DNA from: Alphaproteobacteria bacterium
GTDB taxonomy: Bacteria; Pseudomonadota; Alphaproteobacteria; UBA8366; Aestuariispiraceae
Direction: 5' to 3'
NCBI GenBank assembly: GCA_033344895.1
Contig: JAWPMN010000001.1
Span: 1,612,001-1,676,000 of the forward strand
Length of the DNA stretch: 64,000 nt
Shown here piece after piece: positions 7,132 through 24,811 of the stretch. Numbering within the stretch: position 1 is the stretch's first letter; every line of letters starts with the position of its first letter. The notes beneath the pieces were generated by a model. The model saw only the letters and a list, made by a program, of their open reading frames with translations. It was not told the origin of the DNA and made no database searches. Position numbers and translations under genes: made by a program.

Positions 7132-7524
7132 TCAGGCTGGCGGGCGCCAGGCATCCGGCAGATGGCGCGGCCGCCCGCCGGGTGCCAGTGCGACCAGATC
7201 GAACCGAAGGTCCAGCCCGTCCGCCTCCCGACGATGGCGCAGCCACCATTGCGCGGCGCGCTCTATCCGCCGGCATTGCGCGGGGGTCAGCGCATTCAGG
7301 GCAGCCCCCATGTCGCCCCGCGCCTTGACTTCGATGAAGCACAGAATGCGGCCGCGACGGGCAATCAGATCGATTTCGCCCATCGGGGTCTTCGCGCGCC
7401 GTGCGAGGATCCGGTAGCCTTTCAGCCGCAGCCACCAGACCGCCATCGCCTCTGCGCCGCGCCCGCGTTTTTCCGCGGCCTGCCTGGCGGACCGGTCGTT
7501 GCCTGCCTGCCGCCAGATCCTCAC
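7132..7524 (-). CDS. yraN: YraN/UPF0102 family nuclease-like protein
   Basis: A 130-residue protein with the UPF0102 restriction-endonuclease-like core: RGRGAEAMAVWWLRLKGY, then GEIDLIARRG and CFIEVKARGD, which give the E-D-EVK acidic/lysine constellation. It is likely a Holliday-junction or structure-specific nuclease; the role is unsettled in the family. The frame starts with GTG at 7524 (VRIWRQ). No strong ribosome binding site is seen and a later ATG is possible. It is 122 bases before the BON gene and divergent from the LpoA-like gene. The rsmI gene, which often precedes yraN, is absent. Confidence 0.88.
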   Translation of the reverse strand: MRIWRQAGNDRSARQAAEKRGRGAEAMAVWWLRLKGYRILARRAKTPMGEIDLIARRGRILCFIEVKARGDMGAALNALTPAQCRRIERAAQWWLRHRREADGLDLRFDLVALAPGGRPRHLPDAWRPPA

Positions 7525-7753
7525 GGGGCAATCCGCCGGGCAGGCCCGTTCCTGCCGATTACCGCTTCGGAACCGGATCGCCCAGAAAAAGTCAAAATCC
7601 GGCCATGGCGAATGCCGGAAATCAGGGTAAGTAGGTGCTGTTGCGCGAATCCGGGTCTATGCGGCCCGAATGGCGCGCCGATCAGTTTACTTGCCCGGAT
7701 GCGACTCCTATCTTGTCGAGGCGCAGCCAGCGCGTGTCGGGAGCCTGTTGACC

Positions 7754-9262
7754 ATGTCGCCTTTGCCATCGGCCGAAATTGCCCTTTCCTCTCGAAATCT
7801 CGCGCCGCGCGCCGGCACGCTGGTTGCCGTCTGCTCGGCACTTATCCTGAGCGCCTGTGTCGGCGGCGGTCAATCGCCGACCGTAACACTGCCGCCCAGC
7901 AGCACGACCCCGCAACCCGGCGCGGTCGGACAGAGCGGTGACGCGCCGGAAGGGGCGCCGGGCAGCGATACCGCTCTGACCCATCAGGGCGCGGGAGCTT
8001 TGGCCTTGGGCGATTCCGGACTGCTGGAACCGCCGCCGGATGCGGTTCGCGCCGTCGAGGGCATTCCGGTCGCGGTGCTGGTCCCGCTTTCAGGGCGCCT
8101 CGCCGGACCGGGCAATGCGCTGCTGGAAGGAGCGCAAATGGCCCTGTTCGATGTCCGAAATCCTGAGGTCCGTCTGGTACCAATCGATACCGGCGGCAAC
8201 CCGCTGGGCGCCGAGCAGGCCGCACGGGAAGCCGTTCAGCGGGGTGCCAAGCTGATTGTCGGTCCGTTGCTGGCGGAATCCGTGACCGCCGTTCGGCCGA
8301 TTGCGGAAGCCGCGGGCATCAAGGTCGTCGGCTTTTCCAATTCCAGTCGCGTCGCCGGCGGGCCGGTCTTCCTGGCGGGTTTCGCACCGGAGGAGCAGGT
8401 CGAGGCCATCGTCGCCCATGCCATGGCCGAAGGGCGCCGGAAATTCGCGGTCCTGGCCCCGTCCAACGATTACGGAAACGTCTCTGTCGATGCCTTGCGC
8501 GACGCCGTGACGCGGCGTGGGGGAGAGTTCGCGAGGGTCGCGTTCTACGAGCCGGACGCCCTGGATTTCGCGACCCAGATTCAGCGTATTTCGGACTATC
8601 AGGACCGGGTGCAGGCCCTGGCGAAACAGCGGGCCGAGCTGGAGGCAATCGGCGACGAGGCGTCCAAGCGGGCGCTGAAACGGCTCGAAATCCTGGAAAC
8701 CTGGGGTGACCCGCCCTTCGACGCATTGCTGCTGCCGGTGCTGAACCCGCAGACCCTGCAGATCCTGTCGGCGCAGCTGGCCTATTACGATGTCGACCAG
8801 CCCGCGGTCCGCATCCTGGGTTTGCAGCGCTGGGACAGCTTCCCCGGCCTCGCGTCCGAACCCGGCCTGGTCGGCAGCCGCTATCCCGCCGCGCGGTCCA
8901 GCTTCCGGAACCGGTTCGACCAGCGTTTCGCGCAGTTGTACGGCCATCCTGCGTCCGAACTGTCGGCCCTGGCCTATGACGTGACCGCCGTCGCAGCCTC
9001 CCTGGCCGGGGATGGTCGTCGCCCGCCGAAATACGACGTCGCGACCTTGACCAATCCCGACGGCTTCATCGGCGCCCAGGGCCTGTTCCGCTTCACCGCC
9101 GACGGGCTGGCCCAGCGCAGCTTCGCCATCATGGAGGTCCGCCAGTCCGGCATCGAGATGATCCAGGAAGCGCCGGCCAGTTTCGACCTGCCGCCCCAGC
9201 CGACCGCGGACCAGCCGACTGCAGACCAGCCCGGCGGCCCGCCGCCCGTACCAAGTTCGTGA
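7754..9262 (+). CDS. LpoA-like penicillin-binding protein activator lipoprotein
   Basis: A 502-residue lipoprotein from the ATG at 7754 (an earlier ATG at 7670 gives an unlikely leader). The N-terminal hydrophobic segment ends in the lipobox LSAC, followed by a Ser/Thr/Pro-rich linker. From about residue 100 it carries a periplasmic-binding-protein fold of the LpoA C-domain type, with VAVLVPLSGRLAGPGNALLEGAQMALF-like opening motifs and GPLLAESVTAVRPIA. In E. coli LpoA activates PBP1A from the outer membrane; here that role is inferred from fold and from the yraN/BON neighbourhood. The C-terminus has a short PTADQ tandem repeat and proline-rich tail. Confidence 0.85.
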   Translation: MSPLPSAEIALSSRNLAPRAGTLVAVCSALILSACVGGGQSPTVTLPPSSTTPQPGAVGQSGDAPEGAPGSDTALTHQGAGALALGDSGLLEPPPDAVRAVEGIPVAVLVPLSGRLAGPGNALLEGAQMALFDVRNPEVRLVPIDTGGNPLGAEQAAREAVQRGAKLIVGPLLAESVTAVRPIAEAAGIKVVGFSNSSRVAGGPVFLAGFAPEEQVEAIVAHAMAEGRRKFAVLAPSNDYGNVSVDALRDAVTRRGGEFARVAFYEPDALDFATQIQRISDYQDRVQALAKQRAELEAIGDEASKRALKRLEILETWGDPPFDALLLPVLNPQTLQILSAQLAYYDVDQPAVRILGLQRWDSFPGLASEPGLVGSRYPAARSSFRNRFDQRFAQLYGHPASELSALAYDVTAVAASLAGDGRRPPKYDVATLTNPDGFIGAQGLFRFTADGLAQRSFAIMEVRQSGIEMIQEAPASFDLPPQPTADQPTADQPGGPPPVPSS

Positions 9263-10694: not shown

Positions 10695-10994
10695 TCAGCC
10701 GTCGGCCGCGTTGGGGAACAGGGTCAGCTGCAGCAGGTTGAGCTGCTGATCGTCCAGGCTGCGGGTCTCGTCCTCGTAATAGGCTTCCAGATATTCCATG
10801 AATTCCTGGTTCAGGAAGGCGTCGACACTGAGACCGGCCCCATTGGCATCGCGGCGCACGAACGGCGCCAGATGCGGCGGCAGGGCAAGCAGGAAGGATT
10901 CCGGCAAAGGTACCACCTTTGCCCGGGGATGACTGGACAGGGTGACGACCTTGTCGTCCGGGGTCCGGTCCCCGCCGTCGTCGTTCTGATCCAT
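10695..10994 (-). CDS. Small acidic protein of unknown function
   Basis: A 99-residue, acidic, cytosolic-looking protein with no signal peptide or membrane segment and no recognised domain. A strong GGAGG ribosome binding site precedes the ATG at 10994, which supports it as a gene. The middle part reads VVPLPESFLLALPPHLAPF and the C-terminal half is helical and rich in Glu, Tyr and Leu. It is divergent from the membrane protein at 11133 and 85 bases downstream of the aminotransferase start. Confidence 0.6.
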   Translation of the reverse strand: MDQNDDGGDRTPDDKVVTLSSHPRAKVVPLPESFLLALPPHLAPFVRRDANGAGLSVDAFLNQEFMEYLEAYYEDETRSLDDQQLNLLQLTLFPNAADG

Positions 10995-11132
10995 GATCGT
11001 GCCCTCCGGTAACCTGCGCGAGCGAGTCCTATACCATGATTTGCGCAGAGCGGAAAAAAACCGAAAACGCCTCCGGTCGCCCCATAGCCTTCGCCACCGA
11101 CAGCCCCTGGACCGTGACGAAGGAAACCCGCC

Positions 11133-11591
11133 ATGCCGCATTCCAGCGCCCGCCATGTAACCGGGGCGGACACCGCCATGACCGAGATCGCCCTGGCGCT
11201 GGCCATGGCATTTTTCGCGATTCTGGTCCTCGCCCTTGTTTCCATGGGCGCGGGCCAACAGGCCGAGTCGGCCCCTGAAGCCCGGCAGGACATTCTGGCC
11301 GCGACCCTGGTCCCGCCCGGGAAAGACGCCGCCGCGACCGTCCTTGAAAGCCGGGATGTGCTGATCGTCTATCATGACGGCCGCTTCCTGGACCGTGATC
11401 TGACGCCCCTGGACGACGCCGCCCTGACGGCGCTGTCAGCCATCCGGGCTGACGCCGGCCGGGTGGTCCTGGCCGTCCCGCCCGACCTGCCGCTGGGTGA
11501 AACCATGGCCGCGCGGGGCCGGGTCGGCCGTCCCGATCTGCTGGTCACGGTCCTGAACGCAGACTGGATCGCCCGCTTGCAAGCCCCCTGA
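11133..11591 (+). CDS. Single-pass membrane protein of unknown function
   Basis: A 152-residue protein with one N-terminal transmembrane segment (about residues 18-38, ALALAMAFFAILVLALVSMG) and a soluble C-terminal domain of about 100 residues with alternating hydrophobic strands (VLIVYHDGRFL, RVVLAVPPDLPL, LLVTVLNADW). The topology recalls ExbD/TolR-type proteins, but I cannot show homology. GAAGGAAA lies upstream of the ATG; a second in-frame ATG is at 11178. It is the first of five plus-strand genes leading to the Lon-like membrane protein. Confidence 0.6.
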   Translation: MPHSSARHVTGADTAMTEIALALAMAFFAILVLALVSMGAGQQAESAPEARQDILAATLVPPGKDAAATVLESRDVLIVYHDGRFLDRDLTPLDDAALTALSAIRADAGRVVLAVPPDLPLGETMAARGRVGRPDLLVTVLNADWIARLQAP

Positions 11592-11673: not shown

Positions 11674-12627
11674 ATGCGCCGAGTTCATCAATCTTATCCG
11701 TGCGCCCTGAAACTCTGCCCGCGGATCGTCAGCACCCCGGCTTCCGCCTTGCCGCGGCTTTTCCGGCACCTAACGGCGATCGCGGCGATCGTGCTGGCCT
11801 GTGGTGCCGGCGCCGCCTTCGCGGCCGTCGCGCCGCCCGCCGACTCGCCCCGGGCCGCGGTACAGAAAATCCTGGTCGAGGAGGCGCTGATCGACGGCAC
11901 GGTGCCGCCGACCCTGGCGCTGGCGGTGGCGCGGGTCGAATCGAATTTCGACGCCGCAGCCGTCAGCCATGCCGGGGCGCGCGGACTCATGCAGATCATG
12001 CCGGCCACGGCACTGGGAGAGTTCGGCGTCGCGCCGGACCGGCTGTATGATGCCCGGCTCAACGCACGACTGGGCGTCGCCTTTCTGCGCAAGCTCTACA
12101 TCGCCTATGGACGGCGCTGGGATCTGGCCCTGTCGCATTACAATGGCGGCAGCCTGACCCGGACCGCCGGACAGTGGCGACCCCATTCCTATACCCAGGG
12201 ATATGTTCAGAAGGTGATGCGCTACTGGAACGCCTATCAGCGCGCCAGGTGGGTCACGGTTCTGGTCGCCGAGACCCGGCAGGCCGAAACCCGGCTTGCG
12301 GCCGATGCGCCGCATGCATCGCCCGGCGTGCAGGCCCGCCTGGCGGCGGATTATGCTTACCTGGAGGATCCTCGGATCGAACATGACTGGCGGGACTATC
12401 TGCGCATTGCGGATCGTTGGCTGAAGCCGGAGGCACAGACCGCCGCCGACCCCGCAGCGCCGGTCGACTTCTCGGCAGCGGTCGCGGCCGATCCGGACTG
12501 GCATTATCCGTTCCAGACCGGGGCCGCCCCGATCCTGCCGGCCGCCAACGGCCTGAAAGGCGCGGAACGATTTCTGAATTCAAGCCGCTACTGGTCAATG
12601 CCGACCCCCGGCGCGCGCTTCAACTGA
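11674..12627 (+). CDS. SLT-domain lytic transglycosylase
   Basis: Exported peptidoglycan lytic transglycosylase of 317 residues. An N-terminal hydrophobic segment (about 33-50, ending GAAFA) is a probable signal peptide. The goose-lysozyme-like domain runs from about 75 to 180: the catalytic Glu in VARVESNFDAAAVS, then GARGLMQIMPATA and LSHYNGG, all diagnostic. The C-terminal 130 residues have no recognised domain. A GAGGAGG ribosome binding site precedes the ATG. Position in a run of plus-strand genes with unknown membrane proteins suggests a wall-associated assembly or stress role (inference). Confidence 0.88.
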   Translation: MRRVHQSYPCALKLCPRIVSTPASALPRLFRHLTAIAAIVLACGAGAAFAAVAPPADSPRAAVQKILVEEALIDGTVPPTLALAVARVESNFDAAAVSHAGARGLMQIMPATALGEFGVAPDRLYDARLNARLGVAFLRKLYIAYGRRWDLALSHYNGGSLTRTAGQWRPHSYTQGYVQKVMRYWNAYQRARWVTVLVAETRQAETRLAADAPHASPGVQARLAADYAYLEDPRIEHDWRDYLRIADRWLKPEAQTAADPAAPVDFSAAVAADPDWHYPFQTGAAPILPAANGLKGAERFLNSSRYWSMPTPGARFN

Positions 12628-12641
12628 CCGGAGGCGGCGCC

Positions 12642-14195
12642 ATGGGAACGATCGGCTTTTTCGTGACACCCGGCGACGGCGCTGGCTACTCTGCCGGCGG
12701 AAACCGTGTCGTGCCGAGCCGGATGTCGAGGGAGAATCAGACCGTGTTGAGCGCCGCCCACAGGGTGATCACCGCCGGGCAGAGCCCCGCCCTGCGCGAT
12801 CTGTTCCGATCCCTGGTGGAGATCGAGGGCGCCAACGGCCCGAAATTCTCCCGCAAGGCGCTGCACGTCCTGGCCCAGGCCATCGCCTGCCGTTCCTATG
12901 AGCGGATGGCGCTGGAAACCGTCCATCTGGTCCGCGCCGCGGCCCTGACCGCCGGCCGCTTCGGGTTCGAGGGGGTCTTCTGGGGCATGGATCAGGCCAC
13001 CGCCAGCGCCTTTCGGGGTCATTTCGCAGGCAGAACGGAGATGCCCGGACGGCTTGCAGGCATCGATGGCGGCGTCGAGCTGCGCTATCCCGACGGACAT
13101 TTTGCCATCCGATATGGCCGGATGCCTGTTCTTTCGGCCTTCCTTGAATTCACCGTCGCAGCGATCGGGTTCACGGCACTTTCCGACATTCTGGACGGCG
13201 TTGATGGGCCGAACCGCAATGTTTCGGCCCAGTCGAAAGCCGCCAACGCCCTGTCCCGCGCACTTTACGATTTTCTGGGCGATCATCTGCCCAGCGTTCA
13301 GACGCAGCGCAAGTTCCGCAGTCTGATCGCCTTCCTGGAACGCGATCTGGGCCGGGATTTCCGTCCGGATGCCATCGACGACGGCACCGTGCTGGATTTC
13401 TGGCGCGACGCCAGCACCGGCGAAGGTGGGGAAGGGGGCGACTTTCGCGCCTACCGGACCGTTGTGCTGGCCTTTCTGAGGTTAGTCGAATTGCTGGAAG
13501 ACGGCGACGCCCTGGCCCGGTTCGAACATATGCACGCGATCGGGCCCGATCGTGAGGCGGGGGAGGTCGACCCCGGGGAGGACGCCTATCTGGCAATTGC
13601 CGAATGGGCGCCCGACAACCCCCTGGCGGCCTTTGTGGAACCGCCTGTGGATGCCGTGAAGTTCCTCAACAAGCGGGAAACTGACACCCTGACCCTGCCG
13701 GCGGAGGAGGGCGATCGCCTTCTGCGGCTGCCCCTGTCCTATCTGCGAGCGGAGACGTTCGGTACCGGGCAGCACCGGCTGATCCAGGCCCTGCGGCGCA
13801 AGGCCGGTCGGACGGAGATCCGGGACATTGCCCGGGACGCGGCGACGGAAAGCTACGCGCAACGGATCGACCTTCTGCGCAAGATCGACCTGCATCTGGA
13901 GAAGGTCGCCCTGGCCTCTCTGCATGTTCTGGGAACCGGGCAGGACGAGACTGCGCGGCGCGCGCGCAAGGCCTTCGAGGCCCTGTCCCGGCAGGGGTTC
14001 GACGCAAGCCGGACCGGCGACCCTGACATTCAGGCCGCCTTCAGCACCGCGGCAGGGCCCCTGGCCGATCTGCGCGCCCGGCTTCGGGACCTGCTGACCC
14101 GTCTTGAAGGCGGGCCGGACTGGGCAAAGGCCTATGCGGCCGACCGCGACGTCTTCGCCGACCAGTTCCTCATACTTTACGGAGACGCAGCATGA
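12642..14195 (+). CDS. Large protein of unknown family
   Basis: A 517-residue protein from the ATG at 12642 (GGAGG eight bases upstream, directly after the transglycosylase stop). A second ATG at 12723 is possible and would remove a glycine-rich leader. No domain is recognised. The sequence is mostly helical, soluble, rich in Ala, Leu, Arg and Asp, with no signal peptide or clear membrane segment; the last 150 residues are likely helical bundles. Its stop overlaps the start of the next gene (ATGA), so the two are translationally coupled. It is the largest unexplained protein of this locus. Confidence 0.7.
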   Translation: MGTIGFFVTPGDGAGYSAGGNRVVPSRMSRENQTVLSAAHRVITAGQSPALRDLFRSLVEIEGANGPKFSRKALHVLAQAIACRSYERMALETVHLVRAAALTAGRFGFEGVFWGMDQATASAFRGHFAGRTEMPGRLAGIDGGVELRYPDGHFAIRYGRMPVLSAFLEFTVAAIGFTALSDILDGVDGPNRNVSAQSKAANALSRALYDFLGDHLPSVQTQRKFRSLIAFLERDLGRDFRPDAIDDGTVLDFWRDASTGEGGEGGDFRAYRTVVLAFLRLVELLEDGDALARFEHMHAIGPDREAGEVDPGEDAYLAIAEWAPDNPLAAFVEPPVDAVKFLNKRETDTLTLPAEEGDRLLRLPLSYLRAETFGTGQHRLIQALRRKAGRTEIRDIARDAATESYAQRIDLLRKIDLHLEKVALASLHVLGTGQDETARRARKAFEALSRQGFDASRTGDPDIQAAFSTAAGPLADLRARLRDLLTRLEGGPDWAKAYAADRDVFADQFLILYGDAA

Positions 14196-14740
14196 CCGGC
14201 GCATCCTGGAGTTCCCGCAGCGCGCCCGAAAAGGCGCGGATCGAAACCGCCTTTGCCGCATTGCACGCCGCGGATGGCTGGCTGGATCCGGCGGGGGCGG
14301 GACCTGCGCAAGTGGCCGCGATGCCGGCGCTTTTTCGTGCCGCGACGGACCCCGCCGCGCCGATCCCGGCAACGCTGGTCGGAAGATTGGCTACCGATCC
14401 TGGCTTGCGGGCCGATTTCGACCGGCTCGTCGACCGGGTGGCAGCCTGCCGGATCGGCCGCGCCGCCGCGGCCAGCAGCGGGCGCCTCGACCGGCGTGAG
14501 GCTGGAGGCTATGTCCTGCGCATAAAGCCCTCTCGGGCGGATGCGAGTCAGGTATATCTGCTGATCGATTGTCCGTCGGAAGGGCCGGTACCGCAGGCCC
14601 TGCTGATCCGGGATGGGGATACGATCCTGAAACGGGCGTTGAATGCACCGCAGGACGGAACGATCCGTTTGGTGCTGGAAAGCACCGACCCGCTGGTCGC
14701 GGCCATCGGGGACCCGGCGACGGAGATCGACCTGGTGTAA
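14192..14740 (+). CDS. Unknown protein coupled to the 517-residue protein
   Basis: A 182-residue protein that begins inside the stop codon of the preceding gene (ATGA overlap). The N-terminal half is helical, with a segment LVGRLATDPGLRADFDRLV that recalls the short helical regions of anti-sigma-like proteins. The C-terminal half (about 105-182) is beta-rich: GYVLRIKPS, VYLLIDCPS, then GTIRLVLESTD and a final DPATEIDLV. I do not recognise a named family. Overlap and order suggest it acts with the 517-residue protein and the membrane protein that follows 49 bases later. Confidence 0.65.
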   Translation: MTGASWSSRSAPEKARIETAFAALHAADGWLDPAGAGPAQVAAMPALFRAATDPAAPIPATLVGRLATDPGLRADFDRLVDRVAACRIGRAAAASSGRLDRREAGGYVLRIKPSRADASQVYLLIDCPSEGPVPQALLIRDGDTILKRALNAPQDGTIRLVLESTDPLVAAIGDPATEIDLV

Positions 14741-14789: not shown

Positions 14790-15923
14790 ATGGGGGTTCG
14801 CGTTTTCATTGCGACAACGGAAGGACCGGCGATGATCCAGCGGATCGCCGCCGAGGATTCCGACATTCCCCCGGTCGTCTGCCTGAACGGAACCACGGAA
14901 ACCCTGCCGATCAGCGAGGCCTATGGGCGGTTTGTCCGTCGCGGCACGGGCATGGTCGCGAAACTGACCGGGCACGATTCCTACCGGATCGATCTGGACC
15001 GGCCCGTGGATGGCGGCAGTTCCTGGCAGCTGGGCATTTTACTGGCGCATCTGCTGCAGGCGGAGGGTCGTCTGGCCGGGCCGGAGGAGACGGCCGAGGT
15101 AAACGTCTTCGCCACCGGCGAAGTCGACCGCGATCTCTTCCTGCGGCCGGTCGGGCATATCGAGCGCAAGCTGCTGGCCAGCGACGGCCCCCGACAGCAG
15201 GTCCTTGATGCCGGATCGACATGCCTGTTCCTTGTTCCCGCCGATGACGCGGTGAACCAGCCTGCGGTCACGCCCGTTGCCACACTGGCCGAAGCGGCAA
15301 AGCTGATCGATCTGACGCTGCCGGCCGACGCGCCTGGCGTACTGTCGGTTCCGGCCCCGCCCGAAGCATCGAAGGGGCGAGGGCATGTCGGTCGCGTGGT
15401 GGCGGCCGGTTTCGTGCTGGTCCTGCTGACGGCGGCAGCCGGTCTTTACTGGCAGCGGGACCGGATCGTGGCCGGGATCGATTCCGAGCCGGCAAACCCG
15501 GCATCCCAGGCAGCAACAGAACCGTTGCCCGCCAACAAGGCGCCGGAGAAAATTCAGGTTACGGTGCAGCCCCTGTCGGCGCCGGAGGGTTTCACCTGCC
15601 GCAGCCTGCGCTTCGCCCAACTCTCGCTGGTCGAGGGCTCAGCCTCTCCGCTGACGGCGGGGCAGGCCCTCGCGGGTTCGGACCCGGAGATCTGCCGGCT
15701 TCGTTACGGAGTTGCACCGGGCGGACAGGAGATGCGGGAGTTTCAGGCTGTCTGGCGCGCCGGCGCGCGCGAAGAGACCGTCCAGGGATCCGCGACCCCC
15801 ACGTCGCCGCTGGTTCTCGAAGTCGACGTGATCCGGGGACAGCCTGAAGCCATGGAACTGGAGGTGCGGTCGGGGGCTGACACGGGCACCTCTCGAATCT
15901 GGCGTCACAGCCTCGTGCCGTAA
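14790..15923 (+). CDS. Membrane-anchored Lon (S16)-like domain protein
   Basis: A 377-residue protein: a cytosolic N-domain (1-185), one transmembrane helix (about 201-221, VVAAGFVLVLLTAAAGLYW) and a probable periplasmic C-domain (about 235-377). Residues 70-150 can be laid on the Lon protease domain. DGGSSWQLG (74-82) matches the DGPSAG serine motif, ATGEVDRD matches MTGEITL, LRPVGHIERKLLA (118-130) matches VLPIGGLKEKLLA, and CLFLVPADD matches the VLIP strand. Ser77 and Lys127 fall where the catalytic Ser/Lys dyad lies, with 18 residues from the Thr of TGE to the Lys, as in E. coli Lon. No AAA+ module is present. Activity is unproven. The ATG at 14790 has GAGG upstream. Confidence 0.7.
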   Translation: MGVRVFIATTEGPAMIQRIAAEDSDIPPVVCLNGTTETLPISEAYGRFVRRGTGMVAKLTGHDSYRIDLDRPVDGGSSWQLGILLAHLLQAEGRLAGPEETAEVNVFATGEVDRDLFLRPVGHIERKLLASDGPRQQVLDAGSTCLFLVPADDAVNQPAVTPVATLAEAAKLIDLTLPADAPGVLSVPAPPEASKGRGHVGRVVAAGFVLVLLTAAAGLYWQRDRIVAGIDSEPANPASQAATEPLPANKAPEKIQVTVQPLSAPEGFTCRSLRFAQLSLVEGSASPLTAGQALAGSDPEICRLRYGVAPGGQEMREFQAVWRAGAREETVQGSATPTSPLVLEVDVIRGQPEAMELEVRSGADTGTSRIWRHSLVP

Positions 15924-16160
15924 GCCATTGGCCGGGGAGTCATCTGCGGTAATGAACCACGATTGCAGTCAGAATCTGCACATCACCCCCCAGATATGGG
16001 GTGCACGATACGCTTGATGCCCAATTTGCCTGGGGCAACTCCGGGATTCCGCACGATGCCTAACAAGCGAGTCGCCAGACCCAACCGAACCGGTGCGCAG
16101 GAAACACAGATTCGGTCGGATCAGGCGTATCGGAGTAGGGGCAGCGGGCTTTCTGGAGCC

Positions 16161-17132
16161 TCAGACGACCAGAAGCGTCGATCCGGTGGTCTTGCGGGCT
16201 TCCAGATCCTTGTGTGCCTGCACCACATCGGCCAGGGCGTAGCGCTGATTGATCTCGATCTTCAGACCCTTGGCATAGGCATCGAACAGGGCGGTCGCGG
16301 ATTCGACCAGATCCTCGCGGCTGGCGGTGTAGGTCATCAGCGTCGGGCGGGTCATGAACAGCGACCCCTTTGCCGACAAGGTGGCCAGGTTAAAGTTCTC
16401 GATCGGGCCGGAGGCATTGCCGAAGCTGACAAACATCCCGCGCGGACGCAGCGAATCCAGGGAGCCGGCGACGGTTGCCGCGCCGACCCCGTCATAGACG
16501 ACGGGGACACCGGCACCGTCGGTGATTTCCCGCACCCGCTGGGCGACGTCCTCTTCGCCATACAGAATGACGTGGTCGCAGCCATGTGCCTTGGCCAGCT
16601 CCGCCTTTTCCTTCGATCCGGCCGTGCCGATGACGGTTGCGCCGATCTGCTTCAGCCATTGGCAGGCGATCAGACCGACCCCGCCGGCGGCGGCCTGAAA
16701 CAGGACCGTGTCGCCTGGCTGCACCGGATAGGTCCGGCGGATCAGATATTCGACGGTCATGCCTTGAAGCATCATTCCGGCGGCGGCCTCGTTGCTGATC
16801 GTGTCGGGCAGCTTGATCAGGCGATGCCACGGCATCAGGCGCTCGGTGGCATAGGCGCCGACCGGCGGCGCGGCATAGGCAACGCGGTCGCCGACTGCAA
16901 ATTCCGTGACCCCATCGCCGACGGCATCGATGACGCCGGCAGCCTCAAGGCCGATGGCACTGGGCAGTTCCAGCGGATAGAGACCGGTGCGGTGATAGAC
17001 ATCGATATAATTCAGCCCGCAGAAATCCTGCTTGATGCGGACTTCGCCCGGACCGGGATCACCGACCTGCACGTCTTCATAGACCATGTTCTCCGGCCCG
17101 CCGGCCGTGTGGATTCGAACTGCCTTCGCCAT
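16161..17132 (-). CDS. NADPH:quinone oxidoreductase (QorA-like MDR)
   Basis: Zinc-less medium-chain dehydrogenase/reductase of 323 residues that reduces quinones or enals with NADPH. It shows the quinone-reductase start (VRIHTAGGPENMVYEDV), FCGLNYIDVYHRTGLYP, GLEAAGVIDAVG and the nucleotide-binding loop AAAGGVGLIACQWLKQIGA. Length and order of motifs are typical of QorA. It stands alone; the 237 bases between it and the Lon-like gene on the opposite strand hold no gene that I can see, only a short CACCCC/GGGGTG inverted repeat near 15984-16003. Confidence 0.92.
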   Translation of the reverse strand: MAKAVRIHTAGGPENMVYEDVQVGDPGPGEVRIKQDFCGLNYIDVYHRTGLYPLELPSAIGLEAAGVIDAVGDGVTEFAVGDRVAYAAPPVGAYATERLMPWHRLIKLPDTISNEAAAGMMLQGMTVEYLIRRTYPVQPGDTVLFQAAAGGVGLIACQWLKQIGATVIGTAGSKEKAELAKAHGCDHVILYGEEDVAQRVREITDGAGVPVVYDGVGAATVAGSLDSLRPRGMFVSFGNASGPIENFNLATLSAKGSLFMTRPTLMTYTASREDLVESATALFDAYAKGLKIEINQRYALADVVQAHKDLEARKTTGSTLLVV

Positions 17133-17239
17133 GTGCCCTGCTCCTCCGTTGAGGTTGTTTGATACTGCGCGAGAAACCTAGTCTGCGATGCGGCGCAGGC
17201 CAACCGTCAATGGATCAAGAGACATCGGCGGGACAGGCA

Positions 17240-19255
17240 CTAATCCGAAAGCGCATGGCGCAAGTCCGCCGGGTCGGTGATCGGCAGGGAGCAAACCGGC
17301 CCGCGACAGACATAGGCCGCCGCCGAACCGTCCACCATGCCCTTGCCCGCGGCCGGATGCCCGTCCGGCAGGGCGTCCTCAGGCCCGTAAATGGCGATCA
17401 TTCGCTCGGCCAGCGGGGCCCGTTCGGCCGCCGCGCGCAGTTGTGCGGTTGCCGCATCCTGCGGCGGACCGACGATGACGATCTGGATGCCGTCCTCCAG
17501 GAAGCGCGCGCCCTCGATGACGTTGGAATAGGGGAAGAAGTTGCGCTCCATCTCGCCCGCGAAGGTCCGAACAATCTCCTCCGCACGGTCGAGATACCCG
17601 GTCCTCCCCGTGCGCCAGGCCAGCTGCGCCAGGATAAAGACCAGCATTCCGTTCCCCGACGGTGTCGCGTTGTCCCCCCCGGATTTGGTGCGGGCGACCA
17701 GCGCTTCGGCATCGTCCGGGGTCAGGAAGTAGGCGCCGCCGGTCGTGTCGCGATAATGCCGGTCCAGCACATCCGCCCAGCCTTCCGCATGATCGAGATA
17801 GGCATTCTCTCCGGTCGCCTCGTGAAGCGTCAGCGCGGCCCGCATCATGGCCGCATAGTCGTCGACCGTTGCCGCATGACGCGCGCGCCCCTCGCGATAG
17901 GCATGGCGCAGGCGGCCGCTTTCCGCCATTGGGCCGGCAACAAAATCGAAGGCGCGCCGCGCCATTTCGATCCAGTCCGGCTGATCGAACACGCGACCGG
18001 CCCGCGCCAGGGCGGCAATCGTCAGACCGTTCCAGTCCGTCAGAACCTTGTCGTCCTTGAGGGGAGGGACCCGTTTGTCCCGGGCCGCCAGCAGGATTTT
18101 TCGGCATTCGGTCAGGCGGGTTTCCGTCTCAGGATCCGGGACCGCATCGAGATGCAGGCGGTTCAGGATCGACTTTCCTTCCCAATTGCCGCCGGGACGG
18201 ATGTCGTAGTGCGATTTGAACTCCGCCGCGGCATCTCCCAGCAGGGTGTCGATCTCCGCCTCGTCCCAGACGTAGTACTTGCCTTCCTCGCCTTCGCTGT
18301 CGGCATCGCGCGCGGCTGCAAAGGCCCCTTCCGGTACCGTCATGTCGTCGCGCAGCCAGGCGACGGTTTCCGCCGCCCGCTGGCGATAGAGCGGATTTTC
18401 ATTGTCGCACCATGCCAGGGTCAGCATGTCGAGGAGCTGCGCATTGTCGTAGAGCATTTTTTCGAAATGCGGGACCAGCCAGATCCGATCCACGGTATAG
18501 CGTGCGAAGCCACCGCCCAGATGATCGTATATGCCGCCTTCGCACATCTGCCGCAGGGCGAAGTGGACTGCCTTGCGATAGCGCGGATCGCCGATCCGTC
18601 CACCGGCGGACCAAAGTTGTTTCAGAACCGCGCATTGCGGAAACTTCGGAGCGTCGCCGAGGCCACCATGCTGCCGGTCCATGGCCTGCAGGATCCGGTC
18701 CGCCACTTCATCGGCGGTGCCGCGTCCAATGCCGTCGCCGGGTTTCGGATTGGCCTGGGCCGCCAGCCCGTCACGCAGCGCGGCGACATTCTGGTCGATC
18801 CGTTCCGGCGCGTCGCGATAGGTCTTTGCGACCTGACGCAGCACGTCCGGAAAGCCGGGCCGCCCCCATCGTGTCTCCGGCGGGAAATAGGTGCCGCCCC
18901 AGAACGGCTCCCCGGCCGGGGTAAGGAACATGGTGAGCGGCCAACCGCCCTGCTGGCCCAGCATGGCCAGCGCCGACTGGTAGATCGTGTCGATGTCGGG
19001 CCGTTCCTCGCGATCGACCTTGATGTTGACGAACAGATCGTTCATCAGCGCGGCGATGGCGGAATTCTCGAAGCTTTCGTGCGCCATGACATGGCACCAG
19101 TGGCAGGCCGCATAGCCGACCGACAGCAGGATCGGCTTGTTCTCGGCCGCGGCCTCTGCCAGGGCCTCCGGGCCCCAGGCCCGCCAGTGCACGGGATTGT
19201 CCCGGTGCTGCAGCAGATATGGGCTTGTTTCCAGTCCCAGCTGATTGCCGGTCAT
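17240..19255 (-). CDS. DUF255 thioredoxin-fold/glycoside-hydrolase-like protein (YyaL type)
   Basis: A 671-residue protein of the YyaL/spermatogenesis-associated protein 20 family. The N-terminal thioredoxin-fold domain (about 1-160) has [14 protein letters not shown], the active-site-like CHWC (51-54) and [11 protein letters not shown]. The rest is an (alpha/alpha) barrel resembling N-acylglucosamine epimerases, with [25 protein letters not shown]-like and WDEAEI blocks. Length is normal. The family is widespread, but its biochemical activity is unknown. It is a single gene, divergent from the small DUF6489 gene. Confidence 0.92.
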
Positions 19256-19687: not shown

Positions 19688-21022
19688 ATGAGCGATACCA
19701 TTTTTGCCCTGGGCAGCGGACCCGCCCCGGCCGGGGTGGCCGTCATCCGGATTTCCGGCCCGGCGGCGGGGCCGGCCCTCTGCGCACTGACCGGACTGCC
19801 GGCGCCCCCGCCGCCGCGGAAGGCGCTGCTTCGAAAACTGCGCGATCCGGAGACCGGCGAAGTGCTGGATCACGGTCTGATCCTCTGGTTACCGGGCCCG
19901 GGCTCCTTTACCGGCGAAGATGTGGCGGAGATCCATGGCCATGGCGGGGCGGCGTCGATCAGAGCCCTTCTATCCGCGCTTTCCGGCATCAAGGATTGCC
20001 GCCAGGCGGAGGCCGGGGAGTTCACAAGACGCGCCTTCGCCAACGGGCGGATGGATCTGACCGAGGTCGAGGGCCTGTCGGACCTGATCGCGGCGGAAAC
20101 CGAAGCCCAGCGCCGATTGGCCCTGCGCCAGGCAGCCGGGGAGGGGCGGGACCGCTTCCAGGACTGGACCGACCGCCTCATCCGGGTGCTCGCCTTTTTG
20201 GAGGCCGCGGTGGATTTCCCCGAAGATGATCTGCCCGACACGATGCTAGATCGAAATGAAATCGAAATCCGGGCACTTATCGAAGAGTGGACGCAACATA
20301 TAGAATTGGGTGCCGCGTCGTCCGGTATTCGAGAGGGGATACGTGTCGCCATCATAGGGGCGCCGAATGTCGGCAAGTCCTCGCTGTTGAATCGGCTCGC
20401 AGGACGGGACGCCGCCATCGTGTCGGAAATTGCCGGCACAACGCGGGATGTGGTTGAGGTGCGCCTAGATCTCGGCGGGTATCTGGTGACTCTGGCAGAC
20501 ACGGCGGGGCTGCGGGACACGGAGGATGTCATTGAGGAGGAGGGCGTTCGCCGGGCCCTCCATGCCGCCGAAGGGGCCGACATCGTGCTTCATCTCAGCG
20601 ATACTCCGAACGGCTTCGGCACTGCGCATGGGGACCTCTTCCGACATCCCGATCAGGCTGTGATCCGCGTTCTCACGAAGATCGACCTGAATGGCACCGA
20701 TGCCCGGGCACCCACGGAAGGCACGCCGTTCTGCATTTCGTCCCGGACCGGGGAAGGATTAACCGCCCTGCTTGAAACGCTGCAATCCCGGTGCGAGGAA
20801 AAGCTGGCGGTCGCCGCTGGCGCCGTCGCGGTTCGGGCCCGCCATCGTGAAGCCCTTGGCCGTGCCTGCGATGCCCTTCAGCGCAGCCTCGGGCAGCCCG
20901 AAGTGGCGCTTGCCGGGGAAGATGTCCGCCTGGCTCTGACCGAAATGGGGCGCATTACCGGGCGCGTGGATGTCGAATCCGTCCTCGATGTGGTGTTCGG
21001 GGAATTCTGCATCGGAAAATAG
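19688..21022 (+). CDS. mnmE: tRNA uridine-5-carboxymethylaminomethyl GTPase MnmE
   Basis: GTPase that, with MnmG, installs the 5-carboxymethylaminomethyl group on the wobble uridine of several tRNAs. The 444-residue protein has the folate-binding N-domain (TIFALGSGPAPAGVAVIRIS, FTGEDVAEIHGHGG), the inserted G domain with P-loop GAPNVGKSS (about residue 225), switch II DTAGLRDT and NKXD-like TKID, and ends in the obligatory C-terminal FCIGK. mnmG follows after a gap that carries two parS sites. In many relatives mnmE directly follows rho; here rho is 27 kb away. Confidence 0.97.
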   Translation: MSDTIFALGSGPAPAGVAVIRISGPAAGPALCALTGLPAPPPPRKALLRKLRDPETGEVLDHGLILWLPGPGSFTGEDVAEIHGHGGAASIRALLSALSGIKDCRQAEAGEFTRRAFANGRMDLTEVEGLSDLIAAETEAQRRLALRQAAGEGRDRFQDWTDRLIRVLAFLEAAVDFPEDDLPDTMLDRNEIEIRALIEEWTQHIELGAASSGIREGIRVAIIGAPNVGKSSLLNRLAGRDAAIVSEIAGTTRDVVEVRLDLGGYLVTLADTAGLRDTEDVIEEEGVRRALHAAEGADIVLHLSDTPNGFGTAHGDLFRHPDQAVIRVLTKIDLNGTDARAPTEGTPFCISSRTGEGLTALLETLQSRCEEKLAVAAGAVAVRARHREALGRACDALQRSLGQPEVALAGEDVRLALTEMGRITGRVDVESVLDVVFGEFCIGK

Positions 21023-21028
21023 CTCACC

Positions 21029-21044
21029 TGTTTCACGTGAAACA
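21029..21044. promoter_or_regulatory. parS site 1 (perfect 16-mer)
   Basis: TGTTTCACGTGAAACA, a perfect 16-base palindrome matching the ParB-binding parS consensus of bacterial chromosomes. It lies seven bases after the mnmE stop and less than 4 kb from parA-parB. A 12-base direct repeat of its right flank (GAAACACCATCG, 21039-21050 and again 21093-21104) marks a decayed half-site downstream. Confidence 0.92.
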
Positions 21045-21168
21045 CCATCGTGCGCGTGTGGAATGCCCCAATCGGTTTGGTCTTCAACACACGAAACACC
21101 ATCGCATTCTCTCAGTTGGCACCTAAACATTGTCGGCGACATTTCGTGGAGGGGCGGCCCCCAAGCAA

Positions 21169-21184
21169 TGTTTCACGTGAAACA
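21169..21184. promoter_or_regulatory. parS site 2 (perfect 16-mer)
   Basis: A second exact TGTTTCACGTGAAACA, 140 bases after the first, in the mnmE-mnmG gap. Two full parS sites this close would nucleate ParB loading and spreading. They lie about 20 kb from the putative oriC, a normal distance for chromosomal parS. Confidence 0.92.
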
Positions 21185-21283
21185 TTCCCCGTGACTGCAC
21201 TGTAAATAGTCTCGGGTTCGTTGGTTTCTATTGACCGAAAATCCCCGACGCCGTATATCCTGCGGCGGAAAGGATCCGGGGCC

Positions 21284-23176
21284 ATGTGCGCGGACAAAGC
21301 TCTCCAGAAAATGTCCTGGGACGTCATCATCGTGGGCGGCGGCCATGCCGGCTGCGAGGCGGCGGCCGCCTCTGCGCGTCTGGGCGCCGACACCCTGCTG
21401 GTGACCCACAAGCTCGAAACCATCGGGGAGATGTCCTGCAATCCAGCCATCGGCGGATTGGGCAAGGGCCATCTGGTTCGGGAGATCGACGCGCTCGATG
21501 GCATCATGGGTCGGGTCATCGACCAGGCCGGCATCCAGTTCCGAATGCTGAACCGGAGCAAGGGCCCGGCGGTACAGGGCCCGCGATCACAGGCCGACCG
21601 TAAACTCTATCGAAACGCCATGCAGGCGACCCTGGCGGAAGTGGAGAACCTGACACTCCACGCCGGCGCCGTGGAGGATCTGATCCTCGACCCGACCGGT
21701 CGCCTCACCGGGCTGATCCTTGGCGACGGAACGGAACTTTCCGCCGGCGCGGTGGTGCTGACCACGGGCACCTTCTTGCGCGGCATGATCCACTGCGGCC
21801 AGGAACGCACGCCGGCCGGCCGGATTGGCGATGCCCCGGCGATGGGTCTCTCCAAGACGCTCGAAAAGGCCGGGTTTGCCCTCGGCCGTCTGAAGACCGG
21901 AACTCCGCCGCGTCTGGATGGCGACACGATCGACTGGTCCGGGCTGGACCGGCAAGATGCGGATCCCGTCCCTGAGCCGTTTTCCATGCTGACGGATCGA
22001 ATCACGGTCCCGCAGATTCCCTGCTACATCACCTATACAAATGAGCTGACGCACGCCGCCATCCGCGACAATCTGCATCTTTCGGCGATGTATGGCGGCA
22101 TGATCGAGGGTATCGGGCCGCGCTATTGTCCGTCCATCGAAGACAAGGTGGTGAAATTCGCCGACAAGCCGCGTCACCAGATCTTCCTGGAACCGGAGGG
22201 ACTGGACGATTCGACGGTGTATCCCAATGGGATCTCCAACTCCTTGCCGGTAGAGATCCAGGCCGCCTTCCTCAAAACCATTCCCGGCCTTGAGAAGGCG
22301 ACCATCCTGCGCCCAGGTTATGCGATCGAATACGATCATGTCGACCCGCGGGAACTTCTGCCGACCCTGGAGACCCGTAAGGTGCCGGGCCTGTATCTGG
22401 CCGGTCAGATCAATGGCACGACCGGCTATGAAGAGGCCGCGGCACAGGGTCTGATCGCAGGGCTGAATGCAGCCCGTGCAGTCGGGGGCAACAGCGAACC
22501 CTTCATCCTGGACCGCGCCGACGCCTATATCGGGGTCATGATCGACGATCTGACGACCCGCGGCGCCGATGAACCCTATCGGATGTTCACCTCCCGCGCC
22601 GAGTATCGCCTCCGGCTACGAGCGGACAATGCCGACCAGCGCCTGACACCCCTCGGGCGGGAAATCGGGTGCCTCTCGCCCGAAAGAACGGCGACCTGGC
22701 AGCGGAAGGAACGCGCCCTGGCGGAAGCCCGGCATGTCATGCAGGACCTTCGCGCGACACCGCAGGAACTTGGCCGCCACGGCATTTCAGTCCGCGCCGA
22801 CGGCAAAGTGCGGAGTGCGGCAGAAGTTCTGGCGCTGCCTGACATAACTCTGTCGGCGCTCATTCCGATCTGGCCGCAACTGCAAAAGATCGATCCCACG
22901 ATCGTGCCTCAAATCGAGATCGACGCCAGATACGCGGCTTACCTCGAACGACAGGATGCGGATATACGGGCCTATCGTCGCGACGAGGCCCTACATCTTC
23001 CCGTGGATCTCGACTTTGCCGCGGTCGGCGGACTCAGCAATGAAATGGTTCAGCGACTGGCGCGCGCCCGGCCACGCACCCTGGGCCAGGCGGCCCGGCT
23101 TCCGGGTGTGACACCGGCCGCCGTCGTGGCCCTGATGCGGCATGTCCGCCGCGCTGCCGGCTCCCGGGCGGCCTGA
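21284..23176 (+). CDS. mnmG: tRNA uridine-5-carboxymethylaminomethyl enzyme MnmG (GidA)
   Basis: FAD-dependent partner of MnmE in wobble-uridine modification. It has the Rossmann dinucleotide motif [13 protein letters not shown] near the N-terminus, the GidA signatures [20 protein letters not shown] and [20 protein letters not shown], and a helical C-domain for MnmE and tRNA contacts. From the ATG at 21284 it is 630 residues; AAGGA is upstream. An ATG at 21311 ([10 protein letters not shown]) is also compatible with the family and one at 21221 is less likely. rsmG follows immediately. Confidence 0.97.
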
Positions 23177-23882
23177 TCCCGTGACGCAGAACGGCGGTTC
23201 CGGTTCCGGGTTCAGGGACGGAAACGTCCGCACTCCCTCCGATTTTCAGAATTCCACGGGCGTTTCACGTGAAACACTCGACGCTCTGGTCACCTATGCC
23301 ACGCTTCTTGAGAAGTGGCAGAAGCGGATCAATCTCGTCGGACCCAAGACCGTTGCCGATCTCTGGTCTCGTCACTTTCTGGATTCGGCCCAGCTGGTGT
23401 CCTTGATCCCGCCCGGCGCAGATAGGCTGGTCGACCTTGGCAGCGGTGCGGGATTCCCCGGACTGGTCCTGTGTATCCTGACCGGCCTGGAAACCCATCT
23501 GATCGAATCCGACACCCGCAAATGCGCCTTCCTGCGTGAGGCGGGACGAGCGGCCGGCGTATCGTCGCGCCTGACGGTTCATGCCCGACGGGCGGAATCG
23601 ATCGAATTGCCGCCTGCCGATGTGGTTACGGCCCGTGCCCTGGCACCGCTACCGGAACTCCTGGCGCTGGCGGCCCCATTCTGGGGTGCGGAAACCCTGG
23701 GCCTTTTCCTGAAGGGAAAGCGGTACGAAGAGGAATTGACTGCTGCAAAATATGGATGGTATATAAATTACAGCACGATTCCGAGCCGGGTTGATCCGGA
23801 ATCCGTAATTCTGTCCATCACCGGGCTCCGTCAGGCGCCTGGAGCCGATCCAGAGGGAGAGGGGGCAGGGCGGAAAGGGTAG
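23142..23882 (+). CDS. rsmG: 16S rRNA m7G527 methyltransferase RsmG (GidB)
   Basis: SAM-dependent methyltransferase that makes 7-methylguanosine at position 527 of 16S rRNA. It shows [25 protein letters not shown] and the SAM-binding [14 protein letters not shown], then [15 protein letters not shown]. The ATG at 23142 overlaps the end of mnmG by 35 bases; a GTG at 23181, four bases after the mnmG stop, is an equally good start. A parS-like palindrome is embedded in the reading frame and encodes VSRET. The C-terminus has a slightly AT-richer patch (23745-23780). Confidence 0.95.
23261..23276. promoter_or_regulatory. parS site 3 inside rsmG
   Basis: CGTTTCACGTGAAACA, matching parS at 15 of 16 positions (C for T at position 1). 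It lies in the rsmG reading frame, where it is read as VSRET near residue 41. A third ParB site within 2.2 kb of the first two and 0.7 kb before parA makes a clear parS cluster. Confidence 0.85.
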
Positions 23883-23986
23883 CCGCAAGGCAGTCGGAGC
23901 GTGCCGGGCCCAAAGCGGGCCGCCGCGGCGCATGCGCAATGCGACTTACGCCGCGACGTTGGCACAGCATGGAAGGAATTGCGCCG

Positions 23987-24811
23987 ATGTATGCGAAGTT
24001 GCCCGAAAAACTAACCCGGCCCCGCGCCGACGGCACAGCCCGGATTGTGGCCATTGCAAATCAGAAGGGTGGGGTCGGCAAGACGACCACCGCCATCAAC
24101 CTGGCGACGGCTCTGGCCGCCTGCGAGAAGAAGGTTCTGATCGTCGATATCGATGCCCAGGGAAACGCGTCCACCGGCCTGGGAATCGACCGGCGGGATC
24201 GCGCACTCAGTTCCTACGATCTTCTGTTCGGTCGGGAACGGGCCGAGGCCGCCGCCATCGCCACGACAATCCCTGGGCTCAGCATCGTGCCGGCCTCGAT
24301 CCATCTCTCCGGCGCCGAAATCGAGCTGGTCGAGGAAGACCGCCGCGAATTTCGCCTGCGCGAGGCCCTGCGCGGCGCGGTCACGGAATACGATTATGTC
24401 CTGATCGATTGCCCGCCGGCGCTCGGACTGCTGACGCTGAATGCACTTTGTGCCGCGGATTCGGTTCTGGTGCCGTTGCAATGCGAATTCTACGCCCTGG
24501 AAGGGCTCAGCCATTTGATGGGCACGATCGAGCGGGTGAAACGGGCCTTCAACCCGCGGCTCGACATCCAGGGCGTCGTCCTCACCATGTACGACCGCCG
24601 CAACAACCTGTCCGACATGGTCGCCGCCGATGTGCGCGCGCATTTGGGCGACAAGGTCTACGAGACGGTCATTCCGCGCAACGTCCGGGTCTCCGAGGCG
24701 CCGAGCTATGGCAAGCCGGTCATCCTCTATGACATGGATTGCCGCGGATCCCAGGCCTATATCCACCTGGCCAGCGAGGTCCTGAAACGCGAACGGAGGG
24801 TTTCGGCATGA
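23987..24811 (+). CDS. parA: Chromosome-partitioning ATPase ParA
   Basis: Walker-type ATPase that binds DNA non-specifically and moves ParB-parS complexes during origin segregation. The deviant Walker A motif KGGVGKTT (27-34) is present, with VDIDAQGNASTGLG, Walker B-like YVLIDCPPALGLLT and PLQCEFYALEGLSHLM. From the ATG at 23987 it is 274 residues, with GGAAGGAA upstream; earlier ATGs at 23939 and 23969 lack a better site. parB overlaps its stop codon, so the two are translationally coupled. Confidence 0.97.
   Translation: MYAKLPEKLTRPRADGTARIVAIANQKGGVGKTTTAINLATALAACEKKVLIVDIDAQGNASTGLGIDRRDRALSSYDLLFGRERAEAAAIATTIPGLSIVPASIHLSGAEIELVEEDRREFRLREALRGAVTEYDYVLIDCPPALGLLTLNALCAADSVLVPLQCEFYALEGLSHLMGTIERVKRAFNPRLDIQGVVLTMYDRRNNLSDMVAADVRAHLGDKVYETVIPRNVRVSEAPSYGKPVILYDMDCRGSQAYIHLASEVLKRERRVSA

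Follow-up and report, generated by a model that had tools for sequence, protein, structure and literature searches.

The question raised by this locus is what a Lon-like peptidase domain does when it is carried, without an AAA+ module, on a membrane anchor. Lon is commonly viewed as an ATP-driven degradation machine. In the stretch analysed here (64,000 nucleotides of an alphaproteobacterial contig, JAWPMN010000001.1, positions 1,612,001 to 1,676,000 of the forward strand; from now on, the window), an open reading frame (ORF) encodes a protein of 377 residues, denoted here as P1. A previous sequence-only reading of this DNA had described P1 as a Lon (S16)-like domain on a membrane anchor, acting as a protease if active and as a binding domain otherwise. 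Its interpretation of P1 is supported by the analysis presented here, its observations are confirmed in part, with corrections given below, and the gene was found to form, with its upstream neighbours P2 and P3, the core of a larger gene cluster.

The S16-like domain of P1 and its Ser-Lys pair

As a single sequence, P1 matched zero Pfam families even at an E value of 10, its sole NCBIfam match was GltJ (E 0.056, far under the cut-off), and no Lon match was obtained from it in Pfam, NCBIfam or the PDB, so that a profile was required. When the 36-row profile of the P1 family was compared with the PDB, 44 sequences were recovered at E values of 10 or less, all 44 of them belonging to the Lon family (best E 4.5e-5), and the family profile also retrieved AAA+ Lon genes from whole genomes. 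We consider that the sequence similarity between P1 and Lon is beyond chance. In addition, VIA-align (a re-ranking of the top 1000 Foldseek results, and the source of the structural Lon matches) assigned the Lon S16 fold to the AF2 (AlphaFold2) model of P1, which was the first of the checks proposed in the sequence-only reading.

Comparison of profiles aligned Ser78 of P1 with the catalytic Ser of Lon, and Lys127 with its dyad Lys. A census of these positions comprised 66 domain rows, all from distinct ORFs, and in every one of the 62 rows covering both positions residue 78 was Ser and residue 127 was Lys. The dyad had been placed previously at Ser77 and Lys127: the lysine was retained, while the serine had to be shifted by one residue, since position 77 is Ser in just three of the 62 rows, and with this shift the Ser/Lys pair is conserved in the homologs (62/62), as the earlier reading would require. 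Gly76, Trp79 and Gly110 were each found in 62/62 rows. The distance from the TGE motif (residues 109-111) to Lys127 is 18 residues, and so is that from T130 to K148 in our set of Lon sequences, as had been noted before; within this motif the glycine (G110) stood, but the glutamate did not, being present in only 25/62 rows. Across the 36-row alignment, no Ser is invariant apart from Ser78 and no Lys apart from Lys127. Considering its predicted fold, its dyad and its above-chance similarity, P1 can be assigned to the S16 (Lon-type) peptidase domain superfamily.

Alternatively, the S16-like domain might lack catalysis and serve as a scaffold or for binding, like the corresponding domains of RadA and ComM, with Ser and Lys kept for structure or for a ligand. 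We find this rather unlikely, since a Ser and a Lys at the dyad positions that are invariant in 62 divergent rows are what catalysis predicts, and they are not accompanied in the 36-row alignment by any other invariant Ser or Lys. The invariant pair favors activity over a binding role, and the evidence that P1 is catalytically active as a Ser-Lys peptidase is strong but indirect.

As described before, no AAA+ module was found in the P1 chain: Pfam was blank for P1, and among P1 and the 36 family members the only NTPase part was the nSTAND1 domain of one fused relative (L061, see below). The TM (transmembrane) helix described previously was also found, as a single segment in the hydropathy profile. 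An alternative in-frame ATG exists upstream, at 14643, but the alignments A1 (13 rows) and A2 (36 rows) support a start at 14790, because the sequences of the relatives begin at the matching position. Thirty of the 36 family members have a clear TM segment, with Lys and Arg in excess on its N-terminal side in 23, equal on both sides in six and fewer in one. Because these residues are mostly richer on the N-terminal side, the S16 domain is probably cytosolic, and the C-terminal part, which is beta-rich in the AF2 model (strands between residues 255 and 374), would lie on the periplasmic side. In this part, Cys270 and Cys302 do not vary among the 13 rows of A1, but they are absent from the invariant positions of A2.

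Genes linked to P1

P3 and P2, whose reading frames overlap by 4 bases, precede P1 in the window, and are themselves preceded by c4 and a lytic transglycosylase gene (Table 1). Among 37 loci, consisting of the window and 36 named ones, profiles detected P2 in 34 and P3 in 34 as well, although the rows of the profiles themselves account for 26 of the 34 P2 matches and for 30 of the 34 P3 matches. BLAST with the window genes had supplied all of these rows apart from the L061 P3, for which clustering was the source. Twelve further regions came from remote genomes (11 of the 13 additional ones with family members in the phylum sample) and contained P3 in 12/12 cases and P2 in 11/12, in the order P3-P2-P1. 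Because P3 and P2 are found at 34/37 loci and in most remote regions, the P3-P2-P1 triad is a nearly constant core.

The scans of Pfam, NCBIfam and PADLOC revealed no model for any of the three proteins. P2 looks soluble: a hydrophobic stretch of at least 1.6 appeared in only one of 26 rows, with no clear TM segment. Its structural model (predicted local distance difference test score, pLDDT, 88.3) consists of one helical half and one beta half, and yielded neither a clear structural relative nor a hint of function. P3 is probably soluble or membrane-associated. For c4, Pfam gave no match, and hhalign revealed a weak similarity to ExbD (E 0.014, compared with 0.48-0.78 for four unrelated controls).

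Table 1. Positions in the window of P1, its parts and the genes upstream
Feature	Position	Strand	Basis
P1, Lon-like peptidase with a single TM helix and a C-terminal beta domain	14790..15923	+	ORF; family alignments A1, A2
S16-like domain, P1 residues 1-181	14790..15332	+	
Ser78 codon, predicted nucleophile of P1	15021..15023	+	Register with Lon catalytic Ser; 62/62 Ser
Lys127 codon, predicted general base of P1	15168..15170	+	Register with Lon dyad Lys; 62/62 Lys
P1 TM helix, residues 203-221	15396..15452	+	Hydropathy 2.11; AF2 helix 202-226
P1 C-terminal beta domain, residues 254-374, with Cys270 and Cys302	15549..15911	+	AF2 strands between 255 and 374
P2, 182 aa, helical N half and beta-rich C half, without known family	14192..14740	+	
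P3, about 517 aa, without known family, start codon uncertain	12642..14195	+	Found in 34/37 loci
Lytic transglycosylase, SLT domain	11674..12627	+	Pfam SLT E 3.1e-20; recurs upstream of P3
c4, protein of 137 aa with one TM segment, weakly ExbD/TolR-like in part	11178..11591	+	TM 4-22; family A5; hhalign to ExbD

Evidence on the history of the block came from genomes of the same genus. In three of the four that lack P1 (G001, G002 and G005), the matches to the flanking genes lie 284-311 bp apart, compared with 5482 bp between the same two flanking ORFs in the window, and none of the block genes, including a small minus-strand gene, was found between them. This empty site implies that the five-gene block and the small gene, located at about 10695-11000 (-), were gained or lost together. 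G003, where the aminotransferase gene of the flank is divided between two contigs, was left out of this count, and no second flank turned up within 9 kb in G007. The small gene lies between the aminotransferase gene and c4, and L014 carries a 95% identical copy.

A second module, made up of seven genes in the order c7, c10, c9, c11, c16, c14 and c18, lies after P1 in many loci. In the genome of the window, this module is unlinked, about 0.3 Mb away (G000:C1:1327443-1332242), with the same gene order. Pfam gave nothing above the cut-off for the seven genes of L027, and several of the proteins resemble, by eye, lipoproteins or periplasmic proteins. The association with P1 was examined through c11, in the 13 related genomes with P1 and in 13 picked from the 46 without it: c11 was present in exactly 13 of the 26, the same that have P1 (Fisher p 1.9e-7, a value that ignores kinship), with a weak match in G022 (E 1.7e-5). 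The two genes are far apart in G000 and G004, separated by 12-15 kb in G006 and G009, and on separate contigs in G010. A first look at a sample of 385 genomes of the class, in which scoring covered part of the candidates, found P1 in 19 genomes, c11 in 20 and both in 13 (p 3.5e-15), with P1 alone in six and c11 alone in seven. Among the 12 remote regions, c4, the transglycosylase, c7, c10, c9, c11 and c14 were all present in five (L198, L199, L201, L202 and L203), L200 and L204 had part of this envelope gene set, and L209 only the transglycosylase.

The protein encoded by c11 is channel-like, with three hydrophobic segments in a simple scan and a motif that resembles, by eye, that of ExbB/TolQ/MotA. 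Pfam MotA_ExbB matched one of 17 members (E 0.33), and in PADLOC, where one member was scanned, a weak match to ZorA was obtained (E 0.0086). In hhalign, c11 matched a five-row ExbB-motif set with E values of 6e-4 and 2e-3, as opposed to 0.29-0.96 for five unrelated controls; the values were 0.1 and 0.43 for a TolQ-motif set, 0.02 and 0.25 for a MotA-motif set, and 9e-4 and 0.05 for all 24 sequences together. The c14 protein has an N-terminal hydrophobic stretch in nine of 15 rows as cut, followed by a Pro-rich linker, and is TonB-like in layout only: its 15-row profile found a lone PDB hit, a cytochrome (E 0.27), and no solved TonB. The second module may be energised by ion-motive force, a suggestion for which support is weak.

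Other genes were observed in the surroundings. Pfam identified caspase-domain genes (L029:2551-3918 and L038:2096-3436) and a kinase plus FGE-sulfatase gene (L028:2997-5591) close to P1 clusters, and three clusters of neighbor genes (19, 20 and 39) recur across several loci. Further downstream, at 19688-24811 of the window, genes resembling mnmE, mnmG, rsmG and parA were recognised by eye, an arrangement that is often near replication origins; the GC skew showed no clear switch there.

Distribution, fused architectures and a proposed mode of action

P1 was present in 13 of 59 related genomes, its own included, where the only match was P1 itself. When named genome contigs were scanned with the 13-row alignment, 36 P1 loci were obtained from 50 pattern matches, mostly from metagenome-assembled genomes (MAGs) labelled Rhodospirillaceae or Alphaproteobacteria; the named carriers include Aestuariispira insulae, Curvivirga aplysinae, Alpha proteobacterium BAL199, Agaribacter marinus and Pseudogemmobacter bohemicus. 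The first two of these species carry the complete triad. In the class sample, the 30 matches at E 0.001 correspond to 19 family members and 11 AAA+ Lon genes, which share the domain, contain the PKDGPSAG motif and align as Lon. Of 92 matches in 398 genomes of the phylum, 14 were assigned to the family on the basis of frame length and of the range matched; the remaining ones, judged as a group, looked mostly Lon-like and a few chance-like. No match was found in 72,556 plasmid and 50,697 phage records, nor in viral contigs by one pattern scan. In two MAG contigs (L042 and L058), P1 is divided between two reading frames, possibly through sequencing errors or gene decay. A close relative of the window locus was found in record CP051228.1 (L026), titled Mesoflavibacter sp., and the same place in L014 showed full synteny; Mesoflavibacter is a genus of Bacteroidota, and the title looks wrong.

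In some relatives, the S16 domain is joined to other parts. In P. bohemicus (L061, 9932-14293) it is fused to an nSTAND1 NTPase (Pfam E 1.3e-65), with a P2 homolog on the opposite strand at 7462-8175 (-) and a P3 homolog downstream at 15934-17847. L059 combines S16 with DUF4384 (Pfam E 3.4e-13). In L198 (9097-11742, the same gene as in L163), an 882-aa relative of P1 joins S16 to a protein kinase (Pfam E 3.8e-35) and has TonB_C (Pfam E 2.6e-18) at its C terminus; its gene sits within an otherwise complete cluster. For that lineage, such an end is consistent with a C terminus in the periplasm and with a Ton-like setting.

These observations could be integrated in a model in which P1 is a tethered regulatory peptidase, activated by assembly without ATP, that cuts P2 or P3 within an envelope apparatus, a model that we regard as about equally likely to hold or to fail. 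What was found comprises homology, a predicted fold, an invariant dyad, gene linkage and co-occurrence; the topology, catalysis, activation by assembly, substrate, trigger and energised envelope function are inferred. P1 would be a membrane-tethered S16 Ser-Lys peptidase devoid of an AAA+ unfoldase, with the S16 domain in the cytosol and the C-terminal domain in the periplasm, acting together with P3 and P2, encoded just upstream. P1-P3, c4 and the lytic transglycosylase, along with the channel-like protein, the linker protein of TonB-like layout and the lipoproteins of the second module, would make up an envelope-spanning apparatus. A change in this apparatus might be relayed through the periplasmic domain, which would act as the sensor, and the TM helix, thus assembling or re-orienting the S16 domains, whose active sites would then cleave a partner, with P2 or P3 as the likeliest target, at one or a few specific sites and without ATP. 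Lon functions as an oligomer, and the idea of activation by assembly arises because of this and because oligomerisation is reported to activate the Lon domain of CalpL (see the next section). In some lineages, a kinase, nSTAND1 NTPase or DUF4384 part may join or replace the rest of P1, the STAND or kinase part acting as the sensor, while S16, P2 and P3 are kept.

Several facts weigh against this model. In a direct Foldseek search with the full P1 model, Lon was absent from the first 50 results (BrxL appeared at rank 24), the Pfam Lon model matched none of the 36 family members, and the residue that follows the Ser is Trp in P1 and Ala in Lon. Because the Lon set used in hhalign was gathered through the P1 family profile, independent evidence comes from the PDB search. 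P1 occurs without nearby P2 or P3 in three of the 37 loci (L039, L054 and L057), and the approximately 10 kb upstream in L057 lack both. L205-L208 carry the triad without c4, the transglycosylase or the envelope module genes. P3 has a borderline hydrophobic stretch in nine of 30 rows, that of the window included (1.74), which makes its location unsure. The similarities of c11 to ExbB and of c4 to ExbD are both weak, and the c11, c4 and c14 profiles gave no relevant structure in the PDB. Finally, even for YlbL, a Bacillus subtilis precedent discussed below, the purified protein displayed no protease activity without its TM segment (PMC6051672).

The same conservation and linkage data would also fit a P1 that is an active but constitutive processing peptidase, which builds the envelope machine (for instance, by trimming a module protein once) with no signalling switch, and SepM, a Lon-type protease of the cell surface, cleaves the peptide CSP-21 (PMC11197336). 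We deem this unlikely, as the S16 domain is predicted to be cytosolic, away from the secreted parts, and the NTPase and kinase fusions suggest regulation. Another possibility is that the whole set is an accessory conflict system (anti-phage or anti-competitor). P1 would then serve in it as effector peptidase or as trigger, and its channel-like part would be a motor like that of Zorya. The patchy presence and clean empty site within the genus, the S16 fusions to nSTAND1, kinase and DUF4384, the caspase-domain genes near two scanned loci and the ZorA protein as top PADLOC match of the channel-like protein would suit it. Yet that match is weak, PADLOC was blank for P1, P2, P3, c4 and the transglycosylase, the plasmid, phage and viral sequences mentioned above gave no match, and the lytic transglycosylase, the lipoproteins and the TonB_C end suit envelope work better, all of which makes a conflict system quite improbable.

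Returning to the regulatory peptidase, a broader view, advanced tentatively and in our opinion doubtful, is that Alphaproteobacteria and other Pseudomonadota possess an envelope apparatus of some twelve genes in two modules, possibly linked to ion-motive force. Its output would be an ATP-independent Lon-type peptidase, spanning the inner membrane, that responds to events at the outer membrane or cell wall by cleaving P2 or P3, the S16-P2-P3 core being re-used with STAND NTPase or kinase-TonB_C parts. The near-constant partner pair and the variable added parts make possible a direct test of what switches on a Lon site in isolation and of what it cuts. The family also draws attention to a scattered cluster of envelope genes, and for its core proteins, P1, P2 and P3, the scans gave no curated model.

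Comparison with known systems

The Lon-like domains of RadA/Sms and ComM are parts of helicase ATPases. P1 differs from them in that no ATPase was found in its main architecture and in that the dyad is strictly kept. With LonA, LonB and LonC, P1 shares the predicted S16 fold, the Ser-Lys dyad in register and the TG motif 18 residues before the Lys; unlike them, it has no detectable AAA+ module, its S16 domain is N-terminal, its Ser is followed by Trp, and a TM helix and a C-terminal beta domain are added. Some likeness to the Ton, Tol, Mot and Zor systems was also perceived (the weak ExbB/ZorA similarity of c11, the weak ExbD similarity of c4, the hydrophobic stretch and Pro-rich linker of c14 and the relative ending in TonB_C), but c11, c4 and c14 reached no curated family threshold in the scans made. 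To our knowledge, those systems include neither P1-P3 nor the lytic transglycosylase.

Other parallels are offered by Lon-type proteins without AAA+. B. subtilis YlbL comprises TM, Lon and PDZ segments, with S234 and K279 (PMC6051672), while SepM of Streptococcus mutans is a cell-surface Lon-type protease with S235 and K280 that cuts CSP-21 (PMC11197336). Like P1, both have a Lon-type domain without AAA+ and a TM segment (PMC6051672, PMC11197336). In contrast, their TM segment precedes a Lon domain that faces outside, and they have a PDZ domain; in P1, the S16 domain comes first and is predicted to face inside, and Pfam found no PDZ domain in the 36 family members. CalpL, the Lon-SAVED protease of type III CRISPR systems, has an N-terminal Lon domain under the control of a C-terminal sensor, and oligomerisation through the sensor domain activates a specific cut in a partner (PMC11417357); P1, as proposed here, would resemble it in both respects. 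Nevertheless, no SAVED domain was among the Pfam matches of the 36 members, and the partners of CalpL are a sigma/anti-sigma pair, while those proposed for P1, P2 and P3, are unassigned to any family. According to a survey, Lon domains occur with still further partners (PMC2605481).

The statement of the earlier reading that it knew of no described system of this kind needs to be narrowed. AAA+-free Lon peptidases are a kind already known, as YlbL, SepM and CalpL illustrate; no description of the P1 family or its gene cluster was found in searches of open-licence PMC papers, and both the family and its gene setting appear new. As far as its predicted domain content indicates, P1 fits none of these three proteins, and its family can be regarded as a further case of a motor-free S16 domain with a strictly kept dyad.
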